Shown: positions 34,661 through 61,694 of the stretch, in pieces
How positions within the stretch are numbered: the stretch's first letter is position 1
How the letters are laid out: the number at the start of each line of letters is the position of its first letter
Assembly: GCA_961205875.1 (NCBI GenBank)
Contig: OY540821.1
Coordinates: 1,054,001-1,118,000 of the forward strand
DNA from: Sialis fuliginosa
Taxonomy: Eukaryota; Arthropoda; Insecta; Megaloptera; Sialidae
Reading direction: 5' to 3'
Length of the DNA stretch: 64,000 nt
The notes under the pieces: generated by a model
What the model saw: only the letters and a program-made list of their open reading frames with translations
The model's database searches: none
Told to the model about the DNA's origin: nothing
Translations under genes and position numbers: made by a program

Positions 34661-36011
34661 CATGGCTCCAAACATTTTCGGAACACTTATGGCATACATT
34701 CGTGTATTATTTACTTTATTTTATTTATTATTATTAAATGTTTTGTAACTAATTTTTTTTAAACGAATTCCTTTTATACCATTGATTGTTTATCAATAAC
34801 CTGTACGTATGGTGTCTCTCTTAAATAAATTCCACATAACTATTGTCATTGTATATAATTAATAAATAAAATAAAATAACCTTATAAAAAACAGTTATTA
34901 TGACTATATGTCGATAAAATATTTAAATAGACTTCTAGCAAGGGCGAAGTAGCGACGGGGGGAGGGGGGGGGGTTATATGACGAAGTAAGTAAAATACGT
35001 CACCCATTTCCTGGTTCTGTCTTGACATCTTAGAGAGTGTAAAAATTAACATATAAAATACCCGACAAAATGCAACGTTGTAGAAAAAAAAAGTAAAAAT
35101 CTATATTTCGAGTATTGCGAACTGAATACAAAATAACCCCTCGGAAATGCACCCTTACGTGCACATTATACCCCCTAACAAGGGGGCTGAAATATACAGT
35201 ATAGAGTTGCATTTCAATGCATTTTGTTTCTTACATTATTTATACATGTTTCTATCAACAGAGATAGGAAATAGCAATATCGTGTAATATTATCATTACT
35301 TCTCACTTTATTGTTACGATAAAGTATAAGTGGTCAATACTAGAATGAGAGGGATTGTAAATGTCGCATGGATTTTATATTATCTGTCTTTGTTTTCTGG
35401 TTTCGTAATTGTTGTCAAATATTTTGAATCATTTATAATATGGTGTTAGTAAGAGATACATTGCTAGTATTATATGAATAGTGCATATGCTATTTCATGT
35501 TAGTGTAACATTTCAGTTCAATGACAGTTAAACTAAAACGTGCTACGGAACAGGGCTGGTTTTAGTTCAATTTCAAATTATTGTTTTTATTTACAAATAA
35601 TAGAATGTAAAAATTTCGGGTACGGGTGGAAAAAAAAGTATCTTGTTTGGCTACATAGTACTTTGGAGCTACAAATTACATAAACTTAAGAGAGTTCGTT
35701 ATATAGTCTAGTACTATAGTATTTACGTTTTAAAATTTCAAATAATTTTAATTAATAATATTTTTTCAAATATTTAATACAACATATAATTTAAGCACTA
35801 TATTAATTATTGTAATAAAATTTTTTTTAATAAAATTAAATAAATTATAAACAATACCTTAAGGTTTTTTTCTTGGCACAATTCATGGTATTATGTGTAA
35901 TTTTCATATATCAATTTAGATTTTGCAGATAGTAAATTTAAAATTACAGAATTTGCAGCTTTTGATATCTTTGGTGGTGCACACTTATGTTCTTTTTCAA
36001 TATCACCACTT
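34661..36011. other. Unassigned
   Basis: No gene is recognised. A G-rich homopolymer run at about 34957-34974 follows gggcgaagtagcgacgg, which resembles a hAT MITE end. Confidence 0.25.
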
Positions 36012-36378
36012 AAACGTCAAAAATTTATTAGAAAAAGTAATCAAAACTTAAACCAAAAACAGACATTTTTAAGAAATCAAATTTGGTATACAGTATACCG
36101 TGTGGGGGTTGCAAAAATATATACGTAGGTAATACATCACAAAAACTTATCAATAGAATAACACAACATAAATCAGACACAAGATTAAAACCAACATCCA
36201 CAGCATTAGCAGTACATACAAATAGTACAGGACATATTTTTGATAATAAACAAACTAAAATTTTAGATAATGAAAGATATAAAGCTAAACGTTACATTTC
36301 AGAAATGTTACACATAAAAAGAAACAACAACACAATTGACTTAAACTAAAATATACACCTTAACCACAATAAACCAAT

Positions 36379-36427
36379 GTCACTCGACACGTGTTTCGAC
36401 TTCACAAGAAGTCCTCATCAGGAGCCT
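36379..36427 (-). ncRNA. Hammerhead ribozyme motif, minus strand (intact core)
   Basis: Read on minus, ggctc is followed by CTGATGAG, a 6-bp stem with a TTGT loop (GACTTC/GAAGTC), then CGAAAC, a short self-complementary ACACGTGT stem, GTC, and gagtgac. The ctc and gag around the core can pair as stem I. All conserved hammerhead positions I can check (CUGANGA, GAAA, NUH) are present. Stem III is very short, as in PLE and retrozyme ribozymes, which often cleave best as dimers. Confidence 0.7.
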
Positions 36428-36454
36428 AACAGTTCCAGACTGATACAAACTGTT

Positions 36455-36503
36455 AGGCTCCTGATGAGGACTTCTTGTGAAGTCGAAGCACGTGTCGAGT
36501 GAC
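36455..36503 (+). ncRNA. Hammerhead ribozyme motif, plus strand (GAAA changed to GAAG)
   Basis: Same motif in the right arm: CTGATGAG, stem II GACTTC-TTGT-GAAGTC, then CGAAGC in place of CGAAAC, then acgtgtc. The A-to-G change lies in the conserved GAAA, so this copy is expected to be impaired while its inverted partner is not. Confidence 0.65.
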
Positions 36504-36891
36504 ATTGGTTTATTGTGGTTAAGGTGTATATTTTAGTTTAAGTGACTAGAAACCACAGTTTCTCCGTTTTTCCAGTAACACAATTGACAAAAAAACTGAC
36601 ATATCCACATTATCTACTATTTACAAAACAATTTTAAATAATTAATATATTCTGTCGTTAATTTTCTTATTTTAAAATCAGTTTTTTCGTTCCTTAGTAA
36701 CTATTTGAGTTACTAAGAGATTTGTTATTTTTTCAAACTTTTCCGTAGTCACATGAATATTGTTGAGATAACGACATCGTTCTCACATTTTGATCTTTAA
36801 TAATAGGTATATTTTCTGAATTTTTATTTTAAGATATTAATATTTTTCTTTATATTAATTGTATTTAATTGTTATTTATTATATTTTAGCC

Positions 36892-36920
36892 TGATGATGA
36901 TTCTGTGAATCAAAAGCTTG
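36892..36920 (+). ncRNA. Degenerate hammerhead core of the host PLE
   Basis: CTGATGATGATTCTGTGAATC forms the conserved CUGAUGA plus stem II (GATTC/GAATC). It is followed by AAAAGC where GAAA would be needed. It sits just inside the right 31-bp repeat, where PLE pseudo-LTR ribozymes lie. It looks like a decayed ribozyme of a different PLE family from the insertion. Confidence 0.5.
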
Positions 36921-37242
36921 CGCGATTACTTTTTCTAATAAATTTTTGACGTTTAAACAATTAATTTGTGTTTATTTCATATATTAACGTCACTATATTA
37001 TATTTATAAATTAATTATTATATTATATTACATTATTGTTAATATTATATAATAAATAGGGTTGTAGAAAAAGTATTGTGTGTTTGTTAGTCGTGCGAAA
37101 AACTGCTATTTTACACCCTTGTTACACAAATAACTATTTTATGATACTTATATATTTTTTTTTTGTTTTAGGTATGTACCAAATATTATGTCCACGCTGC
37201 CGTACTATTGTAAGTATGTATAGGTATAGTATAGATAACAAA

Positions 37243-50530: not shown

Positions 50531-51421
50531 AGGTTTACAAAAAAAAAAGTTTATGAATATTTGACGAGACCATTATCCTTATGTATTTTGACGTCCTGAA
50601 TCCGAATCTGAGGTCCATTGACCTTGGTTAGCTCAGTTTCAAGGTCATTTTAAGGTCAAATTTTTAAAAATCGTTGAATGATTCTGGTAAAAGGTGATAT
50701 ATAGGTTTTTCTGGTCGCTGATTCTAAATTTAACATCCGTTGACTTCTACGAGGTCAGGTTCAAGGTCATTTTAAGATCAAAATTTTATTTTTAAAAAAC
50801 GTTAAATGAATCTGGTAAAAGGTAATATATAAGTTTCTCTGGTCGCTGATTCTGAATTTGTTGTCCGTTGACCTCCGCAAGGTCAGGTTCAAGGTCATTT
50901 CAAGAAAAAGTGGGAAAAATCGCTCGAAACAGTACATATAGGTTTGAACCTGACCTTGTAGAGGTCAACGGACGTCAAATTCAGAATCAGCGACCAGAGA
51001 AACCTAAATATCACCTTTAACCAGATTCATTTAGCGATTTTTAAAAATCGACCTTGAAATAACCTTGAAACTAACATTGTAGGGGTCTACGGACCTTAAA
51101 TTTTAATTCAGCAACCCCGAAAATCTAAATGTACTGTTTTGTCAGAATTTTCGAGCGATTTTTCCTACTTTGACCCTGAAATGACCTTGAACCTGACCTC
51201 GTAGAGGTCAACTGATGTCAAATTTAGAATCAGCGACCAGAAAAACCTATATATCATCTTTTACCAAAATCATTCAACGATTTTTAAAAATTTGACCTTA
51301 AAATGACCTTGAAACTGAGCTAACCAAGGTCAACGGACCTCAGATTCGGATTCAGGACGTCAAAATACATAAGGATACAATGGTCTCGTCAAATATTCAT
51401 AAACTTTTTTTTTGTAAACCT
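50531..51421. repeat. 891-bp inverted repeat built of ~125-bp AGGTCA-rich units
   Basis: The outer ends aggtttacaaaaaaaa and ttttttttgtaaacct, and the next ~120 bp inward, are near-perfect inverted repeats. Inside, direct units of about 122-128 bp (marked by tccattgacc 50614, tccgttgact 50736, tccgttgacc 50864) are mirrored on the right. Each unit carries gaggtcaggttcaaggtcat or its complement. No open frame. TCAAGGTCA or CCAAGGTCA occurs at least seven times on either strand. Confidence 0.8.
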
Positions 51422-52586: not shown

Positions 52587-53299
52587 ACATTCTGGGGGTC
52601 CTTCGATCACTATTTGTCCCCGAGCCTCTAGTGGTCAGGGAATTTTGAATCTGTAGTCAGGGGAAAGTCAGAAAATTTTATTTTCAAAAAACAGACACTC
52701 TGTACAGGCAATTTATCTAAACATTTGGTGAATTTAGCACGAGGAAGCACTGTGCTTTTACGTGGCAGATGTTTTTTTAAACAGTAGAAAATTTGATTTA
52801 TTAATGTTTTATCGTATCACGGTGCTCTGGAAGCCAACTTAAATAAAAAAACGGTCTCAAGTTCGAATCCAATTATTTGTATTTGTTTGTTTATTATGTA
52901 GAGTAAAAAGTTAATAAACAATAAATGCTAAATAAAATTCGCGTTATAATTCTGCATACGGTTTCTTATTTTATGAATTATTGAAAAAGCGCCACGGCGA
53001 TTTTTTGCTTTTTGGTCTTGAAATGTTCCTTAAATACTAAAGAATTGAATTGTACAAAAAAATCAGAGGTAATCAATTTTTTTATTTAAGTTGGTTTCCA
53101 GAGCACCGTGATACGATAAAACATTAATAAATCAAATTTTCTACTGTTTAATAAAACATCTGCCAAGTAAAAGCACAGTGCTTCCTCGTGCTAAATACAC
53201 CAATAAATTGCCTGTACAATGTCTACTGTTTTTTTTAAATAAAATTCCCTGACCACAAGAGGCTCGGGGACAAATAGTAATCGAAGGACCCCAGAATGC
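52587..53299. repeat. ~713-bp inverted repeat containing family B ends
   Basis: The outer arms carry cattctgggggtccttcg and its complement, then a degenerate gaaagtcaggga-rich region. Both arms hold a family B terminus (…gcacgaggaagcactgtgc…tggcagatgttt), then tatcgtatcacggtgctctg. The spacer at about 52850-53078 is single-copy. A B-box-like GTTCGAATCC sits at 52863. The duplication happened after family B had inserted, since both arms carry it. Confidence 0.7.
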
Positions 53300-53791: not shown

Positions 53792-54058
53792 ATTCCTTTA
53801 ATTATTATTTTTGTATTTTTTGATATTTTAACAACACATACAATCAGAGAAGTACAAATTCAATATTTCAAAATCATAAAAAAGCTATCACAGACAATTT
53901 GGTCTATTCGGGAAGTGTCATTTTTACTGTTCTTAAGTTGGCAATACGTTCTGTGATTCTGACAGCTTTTTATGATTTTGCAATGTCGAATTTGTACTTT
54001 TTTGATTGTATGTGTTGTTAAAATATCAAAAAATACGAAAATAAGAATAAATAAAGGA
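53792..54058. repeat. 267-bp foldback
   Basis: Both arms, about 90 bp each, contain gatattttaacaacacatac and acaaattc…aaaatcataaaaagct. The centre is about 80 bp. The open frame over it is an artefact. Confidence 0.75.
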
Positions 54059-54175: not shown

Positions 54176-55039
54176 TATACAGGGTGGGGCATTTAAAGTG
54201 TTACAGTTAATTATCTCAGAACCATCGCATATTTGTAAGGGGGTAATCGAATAGTAATATTTTTTTGCTATTTTAATGTGGCCTTTAAGGATATTTTCAG
54301 GTCAACATCATTTTTTTAAATAGGAACCTATAGTTTTTATTTAGTAATCTTATTCTACGTGAAAAAACACGAATCATTCATTGAAAACTTTTTTTTAAAC
54401 AACCCAAGCTTTCCAAGGTATCTAACAAAATAATTCGAGATTTTGAATTTTCAAGAATTTTTTACTCAGAAACCATAAACTTTAGAAAAAAAGTACAAGA
54501 TACCAAAAATGTTTATTTTGGTCTAATGAAACTTGGAGAATTATTCTAGATTTTTTTTTAACATTTCGTACTTTTTTTTGTTTTTGCTAAAATAAAATAA
54601 ATAGAAAAAGTTTTTAAAAGTTTTAAATTTTTTTAAAATAATTCTCCACGCTTTATTAGACCAAAATAAATATTTTGTGTATCCTGTACTTTTTTTCTAA
54701 AGTTTGTGGTTTCTGAGTAAAAAATTCTTGAAAGTTCAAAATCTCGAATTATTTTGTTAGATACCTTGGAAAGCTTGGGTTGTTCAAAAAAAAGTTTTCA
54801 ATTAATGATTCGTGTTTTTTCACGTAGAATAAGATTACTAAATAAAAACTATAGGTTCCTATTTAAAAAAATGATGTTGACCTTCAAATATCCTTGAAGG
54901 CCACGTTAAAATAGCAAATAAATATTACTATTCGATTACCCCCTTACAACCAAACATTTTTTGGTTGAAACATTTTTTTCAAATATCCGATGGTTCTGAG
55001 ATAATCAACTGTAACACTTTAAATGCCCCACCCTGTATA
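54176..55039. mobile_element. 864-bp foldback with TATACAGGGTGGGGC ends
   Basis: Arms of nearly 400 bp end outward in tatacagggtggggcattta and its complement. They match closely up to a short poly-T centre near 54560-54640. Flanks accttgtcttta (left) and accttggtctttg (right) are similar but not identical, so a target duplication is possible but unproven. No coding sequence. Confidence 0.75.
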
Positions 55040-55382: not shown

Positions 55383-56223
55383 CATGGACGCCGGCAGAAT
55401 TTCTTTCAGGGGGGTGCATTTAGATACAGGGTGTCCCAAGACTGCGTCAAAGTTCAATATTTCATTTATAATATCAAATAGAAGAAAACTTTAAATACAA
55501 AAGTTGTCAGGTTAGACAAGCCGCATATTTTAAAAATAGTTACATTTATATAGGGTGTCCCATAAGTGCGTTACAAATCAAAGTTATGTTTTTACAATGT
55601 GTATTTTTTCGATTGATAATCTTAAAGCATTCATTTTTTTGGATATTTTGATACAAGCATGTGTAGGATTATACTGAGCGGTTTAGAAATTATGACCATT
55701 TTTATAAGAAAATTGACATATTTTCAAAACATTGTTATTTTTTTATTACAATAAAAAAAAATTGTTTTCTACTAAAAATAGTTTTGGCATATGCTCTATT
55801 ATTGCGATATTACATCAAACATTTACAAAATTGTATTTTTTGTACAGGGTGTATCAAAACTCTAAACTTAATTTTTTTTCAAAATTTTCAAATGGACACC
55901 CTATATATTTTCACATTTTCGAATTGGGACAACCTGTATATAAAATTAAATTACATGCGAGGATAATTAAAATAATAATAATAATAATTTTGTAATAATA
56001 AACCTGCATTGAAATTAGCATGAATAAAAAAAAAGGTACTCAGTTTTATATTCTGCCCTGCGGCCTAGAAAGTTCAAAAGGTTATACACCTATGACTTAA
56101 AATGTTATTCAAAGAGTGAATTTTAAAATAAAAATTGTATTTCTTAATTTTTTCATGTGTTTTTTCTTTTTTTGCCAGGGGGGTGCAAATGCACCTCCTT
56201 GCACCCCCCACCCGGCGCCCATG
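55383..56223 (+). mobile_element. hAT-type element with CATGG(A/G)CGCCGG ends, carrying nested insert
   Basis: The left end CATGGACGCCGGCAGAATTT and right end …CACCCGGCGCCCATG are inverted. A perfect 8-bp duplication AAAGTAAT flanks it (55375-55382, 56224-56231). Inside, from about 55426 to 55942, is another repeat with ends tacagggtgtcccaag and gggacaacctgtata. Non-autonomous; related to 48045-48335. Confidence 0.85.
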
Positions 56224-56236
56224 AAAGTAATTATTA

Positions 56237-56855
56237 TTAGGTTGTTGCAAAAATAATGCACATTTTTTATTATGAATTTTAAACTTATTTATTCCAAATA
56301 TAATTAAGCTACTTAAGCAAGTTTTTTTATGCATTTCATCAATTTGTTGACAATACCTTTCTGCTGTAATTGTTTCACCAGGATTTAAGAAGTTATAGCG
56401 GATTAATCCCTGTACAGACCACCAAACGGTCACTATTGTCTTCTTTGGATGCAAACTTGACTTTGGAAAGTGTTTAGGAGCTTCAGCTTTATTTAACCAC
56501 TGCCCTGATCGTCTCCTATTGTTATATAAAACCAATTTTTCATCGCACGTTAAATACGTTCCAAAAATGGATCGTTTTTGTTGCGTACAAGAAGCATAGA
56601 ATAAATTTCGTATCGACGATTTTTGTGATTTTCGCTTAATTCGTGTGGCACACATTTATCAAGCTTTTTTGTTTTGCCAATCGTAGTTAAATGCCGTGAA
56701 ATGGTTTCTGGGTCTACTTGTAGCTTTTCTGCAGTTGTATGTGGATTAGCTTCCACTATAGCTTTCAACATGTAGTTTTGGGCGACAACTTTAAAAGAAA
56801 ATAGTACCTAAATCTAGGCATAGGAAAAACGTGCATTATATTTGCAATGACCTAA
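56237..56855 (-). mobile_element. Internally deleted mariner (619 bp) with both TIRs
   Basis: Ends TTAGGTTGTTGCAAAAATAA and, from the other side, TTAGGTCATTGCAAATATAA are inverted repeats like those of the Hsmar1/cecropia group. TA duplications lie at both sides (56235-56236, 56856-56857). The element keeps only about half of a normal 1.3-kb mariner: the coding part is the middle of the transposase. Confidence 0.9.
56318..56771 (-). pseudogene. Mariner transposase fragment, frameshifted
   Basis: The first piece (from 56771) reads MLKAIVEANPHTTAEKLQ…ISRHLTTIGKTKKLDKCVPH, the second helix-turn-helix plus the linker with a WVPHEL-like motif (W changed to C). It ends at …NDPFLERI by a one-base deletion. 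The next frame resumes with …LTCDEKLVLYNNRRR, containing the first catalytic Asp, and …TVWWSVQGLIRYNFLNPGE, up to the QQIDEMHKK segment near 56318. The N-terminal first helix-turn-helix and the second and third catalytic Asp residues (DD34D) are deleted. It cannot be active but keeps TIRs, so it could be mobilised in trans. Closest remembered group: cecropia (Hsmar1). Confidence 0.9.
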
Positions 56856-60624: not shown

Positions 60625-61390
60625 TTAAAAGTGTTTTTTCGGCCCTTTTCTTTTGTGTAATGCATGAGTGTCTCGGAGCAGTAACCAACAAAACTCTCCA
60701 AGCATTTTGGATACATACAGCCCATTGAAGCGGTCTTCCATGTCGCTTATATCTTGGTGGAAACGTTCACCGTGCTCGTCTGAAAAATCACCTAAATTAT
60801 CTGGGAAAAAAATCAATGTGCGATTTGAGAAAATGCATTTTAAGCATCAAGTTGGATCCAATTGTGTGGCAATTTTTCAACATTGTTTCCACTAGTTGTT
60901 TGTAGTTTGGGCTTCTAACATTACCCAAAAAACCGTGAATAACAGCCTCGAAAGAAGCCCATGCGATTTGTTGTTTGGCAGTTAAAAGAAAGAAATTCTT
61001 CTGAATGTAAAGTTGTTCTTATTTGGGGACCAACGAAAATTCCCTCTTCTGCTTTGAATCTATTAAAGCGAGGAAACATGCCGTCCAAGAAGTCGATGGC
61101 AGCGGTGTTTGTGTTGCCAACTGCTTTGACGAATTGGGTCATCAGCCCAATTTAATGTGTAATGGTGGTAAAATTATTTTATCTTTGGGAACAAGTAGTC
61201 TGGATTTGACACTGAAAACACCTTACGTATACTTCTATAGGGCCATGTTTCTCTCGTCCAATGCTCGTTATGTGATTTACTGTCGTAGAGGCATAAAAAT
61301 CAGTTATGCTTGGTAAAATCGCTCTGTAAGCCCATTAATACGGCTATTATCTTCAAATTTGCGACTATTTGCAAATTGTATTTTTCATAT
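60625..61390 (-). pseudogene. Transposon-borne protein with SDEHGERFHQD core, 5'-truncated and frameshifted
   Basis: I recall this protein family as very common and mostly uncharacterised in arthropod genomes. Reading on minus through the centre into the left arm, the order of blocks is: …NLKIIAVLMGLQ…, a FLCLYDSK block, PPLHIKLGLMTQFVKAVG, KAEEGIFVGPQIRTTLHSEE, AWASFEAVIHGFLGNVRSPN, HFLKSHIDFFPDNLGDFS, DEHGERFHQDISDMEDRF, then a MLGEFCWLLLRD tail and stop at 60625. Several frame changes are needed: near 61230, near 60985, and at the T-run 60805-60812, where one extra T separates …HIDFF from PDNLG. No catalytic motif can be assigned. The N-terminal part is absent. A role as part of a CACTA-like transposase is an inference from the element's ends. 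Confidence 0.7.
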
Positions 61391-61396
61391 AATGTA

Positions 61397-61694
61397 AATG
61401 TTAGAAGCCCAAACTACAAACAACTAGTGGAAACAATGTTGAAAAATTGCCACACAATTGGATCCAACTTGATGCTTAAAATGCATTTTCTCAAATCGCA
61501 CATTGATTTTTTTCCCAGATAATTTAGGTGATTTTTCAGACGAGCACGGTGAACGTTTCCACCAAGATATAAGCGACATGGAAGACCGCTTCAATGGGCT
61601 GTATGTATCCAAAATGCTTGGAGAGTTTTGTTGGTTACTGCTCCGAGACACTCATGCATTACACAAAAGAAAAGGGCCGAAAAAACACTTTTAA
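61397..61694 (+). pseudogene. Inverted duplicate of the SDEHGERFHQD C-terminus
   Basis: Same C-terminal coding stretch in the right arm, from VRSPNYKQLVETML through DEHGERFHQDISDMEDRF to the stop at 61692-61694. It carries the same one-base T-run frameshift (61506-61512) as the left arm, so the break is older than the duplication or was copied by it. It lacks everything upstream of NVRSPN. Confidence 0.75.

Follow-up and report, generated by a model that had tools for sequence, protein, structure and literature searches.

Palindromic insertions in the Sialis fuliginosa genome that may arise by two-ended priming on the leader of a Penelope-like element

The analysed stretch of DNA (hereafter, the window) comprises 64,000 nucleotides of contig OY540821.1 from Sialis fuliginosa (positions 1,054,001 to 1,118,000). 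It contains an old copy of a Penelope-like element (PLE) of the group that we call family A, and a 236-bp insert lies at the GIY-YIG-coding end of this copy. The positions of all features are given in Table 1. As the sequence-only reading of the window had stated, the insert is bracketed by a perfect 12-bp direct repeat (AACACAATTGAC), and when the flanks are joined with one copy of this repeat the GIY-YIG frame runs for 18 more codons to a stop. With Pfam, the end of the host ORF scored 22.3 bits for GIY-YIG, slightly under the cut-off of 22.6, and a related target sequence is present once in family-A paralogues (for example, in L052-L055). The layout of the insert, 94 (arm) + 13 (spacer) + 94 (arm) + 35 (tail) = 236 bp, was also confirmed. 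The two arms are identical at 93 of 94 positions. The sole mismatch, noticed earlier and verified here, is GAAA in the left arm (minus strand) versus GAAG in the right arm (plus strand). The 13-nt "spacer" is present, but it is really the continuation of the left arm, in which TGTATCAGTCTGG reads on into AACTGTT; TGTATCAGTCTGG was found too in the right arm of another copy (L011). We infer that the left arm was reverse-transcribed from an RNA leader, with the tail-less start site (TTAAAC..) at one end and the 5' region of the RNA (..CCAGACTGATACA) at the other. The tail contains a small AGAAAC-CACA-GUUUCU hairpin (z -0.85, not significant), and it resembles the PLE "tail" described in PMC11167929 and PMC3846280.

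Table 1 Features of the 236-bp insert and its host element (positions in the window)
Feature	Position	Strand	Basis
Target-site duplication, left copy (AACACAATTGAC)	36329..36340	.	Direct reading; target-site duplication scores across copies
Left arm including the 13-nt "spacer"	36341..36447 (arm proper 36341-36434, spacer 36435-36447)	-	
Hammerhead-like motif, core intact (CTGATGA..GAAACACGTGTC)	36386..36421	-	Pattern match; Rfam Hammerhead_1 17.7 bits, gathering score 34
Right arm, same leader; RNA 5' end about 13 nt shorter than in the left arm	36448..36541	+	
Hammerhead-like motif, GAAA changed to GAAG in this copy only	36461..36496	+	Pattern match and copy alignment
35-nt tail, between two inferred reverse-transcription start sites	36542..36576	+	
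Target-site duplication, right copy	36577..36588	.	Direct reading
Host, an old PLE copy of family A; inverted ends of 33 bp at 36010-36042/36924-36956	36010..37004	+	
GIY-YIG ORF end of the host family-A copy	36041-36340	+	
Degenerate hammerhead of the host family-A copy	near 36891-36925		

A hammerhead ribozyme had been proposed in each arm. Both arms do match the hammerhead pattern, and the same pattern had no match in 100 shuffles of the window. In the covariance-model check, the Rfam type I hammerhead model lists the minus-strand arm alone, at 17.7 bits and below its gathering score of 34, and no match in the Rfam scan of the window attains the gathering score of its model. The term hammerhead is therefore used here at the level of the motif. 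Because GAAG is absent from all other copies among the 43 aligned, it is a private change of the window copy. Family A possesses a similar motif in which the stem II letters differ (CTGACGATGATTC..GAATCGAAA). Degenerate hammerhead-like stretches were also seen slightly ahead of the ORF in family B (L078, about 610-660) and in family C (L083, 342). Outside this genome, the pattern had no match in IMG/VR, and matches were observed in three bacterial contigs (L080, L081 and L082). The Rfam matches of miRNA type and other types, all below gathering scores, were set aside; they come from the near-perfect hairpin. In 2014, Cervera and de la Pena reportedly described minimal PLE hammerheads that are short, with a palindromic stem III and the type I order, like the motifs observed here. 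To our knowledge, no palindromic pair was described among them.

Across the 20 contigs (392 Mb) of this genome, at least 40 further near-full-length copies of the palindrome are present; this count is a lower bound, since 40 of 1960 candidates were scored. From 39 loci that contain these copies and from the window, we aligned 43 copies in all, a number that includes the window copy and two partial ones from the flanks; another partial copy, short and located in L038, was excluded. In the whole genome, the tail has 232 exact occurrences and the reversed control has none. Target-site duplications with a score of at least 10 were found in 40 of the 43 copies and all 40 are different, as compared with 0.08% of 2522 shuffled (re-paired) flank pairs. 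The commonest length is 12 bp (15 of 43 copies). Scores below 10 were obtained for three copies: L009b, with a 9-bp repeat, and L038 and L042, in which none was usable. The idea that all copies might share the same flanks clearly fails, and the insertions are independent. At L009, two adjacent palindromes have an identical left flank (AAATTCTGATTG), which would be explained by local duplication or by nested insertion.

The arms, centres and tails were then compared copy by copy. Within a copy, arm divergence was 0.029, versus 0.042 when the right arms were re-dealt among copies, and none of 10,000 permutations was as low (41 copies). Variants that define subfamilies are mirrored: those at arm-alignment columns 60, 74, 83 (T) and 83 (A) occur in both arms in 6/6, 2/2, 18/19 and 4/4 copies, respectively. 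Singleton variants behave differently, with 2 of 72 in both arms and 70 in one arm. For the 22 variants common to at least two copies, 34 of 81 instances were mirrored; the unmirrored instances fall in columns at the edges of the arms or in a short insertion, or they are recurrent changes (mostly G to A) that affect one arm at a time. To judge from these sequences, a single-arm RNA appears to have been copied separately into each of the two arms, which were paired anew when the insertion was made.

The centres of the palindromes comprise 35 distinct strings in 41 copies; an initial count of 36 strings in 42 copies included one empty string, which was an anchor artefact. When point differences were merged by eye, about 23 joint types remained in the 41 copies, and the commonest, CCAG-A/T-CTGG, accounts for about 13 of 41 copies including those with point changes. 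The variety of the centres is thus below the string count. In the alignment, the tail was found at the right end only and at the left end of no aligned copy. We also compared how far the two arms reach towards the RNA 5' end, using a score that tolerates gaps and mismatches. The tail-less arm was longer by at least 5 nt in 6 of 41 copies and the tailed arm in 8, and the two were about equal in 27. It should be mentioned that a stricter score, misled by single point changes, had counted the tail-less arm as longer in 10 of 41 copies; four of these vanished on rescoring. In two more copies (L026b and L045b), the tailed arm is grossly truncated and the tail-less arm reaches CCAGACT. These two were excluded from the arm statistics and from the reach and centre counts. 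In some copies each arm contains sequence that is missing from the other; therefore, barring later loss of bases, neither arm was copied from the other. Later deletions could in part explain the six longer tail-less arms together with L026b and L045b. A search that ignored the tail returned 40 places, of which 37 were already known; the three new places have the tail (L086), its first bases only (L085) or no tail (L084).

The leader extended by upstream bases (GTATCAGTCTGG...) has 103 exact matches in the genome, of which 100 are listed; these were compared with all 150 scored GIY-YIG matches (150 of 160 candidates) and with 100 listed of the 232 tails. At 21 of the 100 listed leader sites, a same-strand GIY-YIG match lies at most 1 kb upstream, versus 0.017 sites expected from random placement (with an estimated size for contig C3). 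None of the 100 listed sites has one downstream, which served as the control. As five of the 21 sites belong to a single tandem array, the number of independent sites is 17. The distance from GIY-YIG to leader is 153-289 nt, and it is exactly 263 nt in 8 of the 21. At the other 79 listed sites, no listed GIY-YIG match lies upstream. On the opposite strand, GIY-YIG matches occur within 1.5 kb of leaders in six cases, as expected from head-to-head copies. All 15 opposed leader pairs are head-to-head, with starts 44 to 2174 bp apart. An example of a head-to-head arrangement is C5:28208300-28210300, where both arms have a GIY-YIG match. The GIY-YIG matches are often weak and mostly below the Pfam cut-off, and it is their constant position that provides the evidence. 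Because of this constant upstream placement and the head-to-head pairs, the arm is most likely the pseudo-LTR (pLTR) end of a coding PLE, which we call family D and recognise by its GIY-YIG matches. The 236-bp palindromes look like the shortest product of family D, in which both cDNAs would end close to the 5' end of the RNA. An exact extended leader was found within 2.5 kb of 12 of the first 100 listed tails (232 in total), although exact matching undercounts. Loci of the other families were also searched for the leader: among 29 other family-A loci there was no strong match, the single strong one being the window itself (L048); the best match in the family-B stretch L078 was 19 nt (E 0.005), which is not strong; and in L083, a stretch of family C, the best match is unconvincing (71% over 56 nt, E 0.011). 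A five-copy tandem array (G000:C10:3224088-3253587, period 7.37 kb) has a leader and a GIY-YIG match per unit, and it was considered as a parent and rejected. The unit that was read has the tail-less leader end followed by unrelated DNA, and we therefore regard the array as a duplicated locus.

These results alter the earlier proposal of a non-autonomous, PLE-mobilised element built of an inverted ribozyme pair. The retro-inserted unit with its target-site duplication stands, and the machinery is apparently of the PLE type. In contrast, the inverted pair does not look inherited as such, and because the RNA is most likely the pLTR or leader of a coding PLE, a stand-alone non-autonomous element is unproven.

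Other PLE families in the genome were compared for the same features. In family A, 15 insertions have both arms visible; in 14 of them the two arms begin at different sites, which are about 30 nt apart, and in the remaining one both arms begin at the downstream site. Target-site duplications are clear in several family-A insertions, among them L049 and L054 (13 bp each) and L057 (14 bp). Two have none according to the script, and some sit in simple repeats. For neighbours in opposed orientation within 4.5 kb, the numbers of head-to-head and tail-to-tail pairs were 11:0 in family A, 3:1 in family B and 18:1 in family C (sum 32:2), and 47:2 when the leader pairs (15:0) were added. This sample consisted of 86 of 150 places in one listing, from which low-identity and many partial places were dropped, and of all 131 family-C places. 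Family B has a few head-to-head pairs and one tail-to-tail pair. The rule of one tail per insertion is drawn from family A and the palindromes. In family C, there are arrays in which minus copies come first and plus copies after. Two of these arrays have a period of about 3.56 kb: G000:C10:985400-1019150 (6 minus, 4 plus) and C7:62613-89355 (5 minus, 3 plus). Such long head-to-head arrays may have been copied from RNA templates that were multimeric or circular.

We consider it probable that a coding family-D PLE gave rise to the insert, as a leader-only insertion made by two-ended target-primed reverse transcription. The copies themselves display independent insertions, two start sites about 35 nt apart, separately ended arms in some copies and many different joints. 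The remaining steps would be as follows. As judged from the DNA, the RNA would start near TCAGT at the palindrome centre, which we take to be an insect initiator-like motif. The PLE endonuclease would make a 12-nt staggered cut that leaves two 3' ends. Each of these would prime reverse transcription within the leader, the upstream site being used by one end and the downstream site by the other, and both cDNAs would run off at approximately the 5' end of the RNA. The 3' ends of the two cDNAs would then anneal at short self-complementary stretches, such as the CCAG/CTGG of the commonest joint, or be end-joined, and a palindrome would result. The hammerhead would ride along as a part of the leader; it might process the RNA, though its action is nowhere required. 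This model fits the in vitro work on a lizard PLE, the Poseidon element of Anolis carolinensis, in which both target strands are cleaved and extended from two internal start sites that bound the tail (PMC11167929). It departs from the self-priming reading of rotifer PLEs (PMC3846280).

According to that self-priming reading, one cDNA folds back at its 3' end and primes its own copy, so that a head-to-head palindrome is formed. It was offered for palindromes at inverted junctions in rotifer PLEs, where the template is antisense (PMC3846280), and the short, partly self-complementary centres and the arms of about equal 5' reach in 27 of 41 copies would agree with it here. However, a copied arm cannot exceed its template, and yet the tailed arm has about 35 nt extra, while the tail-less arm, barring later losses from its partner, has extra 5' sequence in six of the 41 copies as well as in L026b and L045b. 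Moreover, self-priming predicts tails at both ends or ragged left ends, whereas the observed start is near-constant. We therefore regard self-priming as improbable. The palindromes might instead be a stand-alone non-autonomous retroelement, that is, their own source genes, with outward leaders transcribed from the centre and the PLE protein supplied in trans. Several mirrored subfamilies suggest several sources, and an exact extended leader is near only 12 of the first 100 listed of the 232 exact tails, even if this is an undercount. On the other hand, transcription of the palindromes is an assumption, and the GIY-YIG-linked leaders exist and could suffice as sources. Although this possibility is compatible with two-ended priming, we think it rather unlikely.

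Long inverted arms and a target-site duplication are also features of a foldback or MITE-type DNA transposon, which might carry a hammerhead-like motif by chance, and other inverted repeats occur frequently at the loci as well as in the window. Such a transposon should have symmetric inverted ends and an inherited interior. In contrast, the palindromes have a tail at one end, 35 centre strings in 41 copies and arms of which one may be truncated without the other, and GIY-YIG matches lie upstream of the leader; we judge a DNA transposon to be extremely improbable. A retrozyme copied via circular RNA would account for the type I-like hammerhead, and the unit size is within the 170-400 nt given for animal retrozymes (PMC7229834). 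These non-LTR retrozymes share with the insert a short hammerhead-bearing unit, a target-site duplication and suspected mobilisation by PLEs. They are, however, direct tandem repeats that give circular RNA, while the window insert is an inverted pair with a variable centre and the aligned copies are palindromes with no tandem direct repeats. Because the hammerheads are inverted, each strand has a single sense hammerhead and, unlike that of tandem retrozymes, the transcript cannot release a unit-length monomer. Thus, a retrozyme is very unlikely. Two-ended priming on the family-D leader may be extended to a broader proposal, which we offer as speculative and doubtful: leader palindromes would be the mobile unit, with two divergent central promoters, and the PLE protein would capture the tailed-arm RNA, so that one arm is inherited and the other is rebuilt at each jump; two-ended insertion with one cDNA per start site would be general for PLEs.

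The window insert possesses the marks of a PLE insertion, namely a 12-bp target-site duplication, a 35-nt tail on one inverted pLTR and a leader linked to GIY-YIG. The target-site duplications of the rotifer examples are 8-10 bp (PMC3846280). In the case of Adineta vaga Penelope, the same report describes head-to-head inverted pLTRs, short target-site duplications, junction palindromes and solo pLTRs, several of the latter without association to other Penelope sequences or target-site duplications. There, a 31-bp tail is optional on one inverted pLTR, in comparison with the 35-nt tail on one arm of the window insert. The paper favours self-priming. In S. fuliginosa, the large set of leader-only palindromes permits copy-by-copy tests. 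Poseidon shares with the insert the two start sites that bound the tail and an AC-rich stem-loop, and its hammerhead lies at the pLTR-ORF junction (PMC11167929). That work was performed in vitro with one protein, and it is not known to report palindromes inserted in a genome or a single tail for each insertion. Our literature search, with subscription literature largely outside its range, found no account of leader-only palindromic PLE families.

The route of PLE insertion is still described as an open question (PMC11167929). Many short insertions such as those analysed here let the start sites, the stagger of the cut, the RNA 5' end and the joining step be deduced from DNA sequence. They favour two cDNAs, each primed independently, rather than self-priming, and two-ended priming offers a reason for the inverted pLTRs with one tail in PLE copies.

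Elsewhere in the window, further long inverted repeats are present at 50663-51338, 52732-53196, 53813-54036, 54287-54895 and 60850-61469. Their arms are about 65-259 bp and 88-100% alike, and there are some shorter and weaker ones; they are perhaps of foldback or MITE type. In addition, an ORF at 56074-56655 on the minus strand is, by its appearance, presumably a fragment of a mariner-type transposase.
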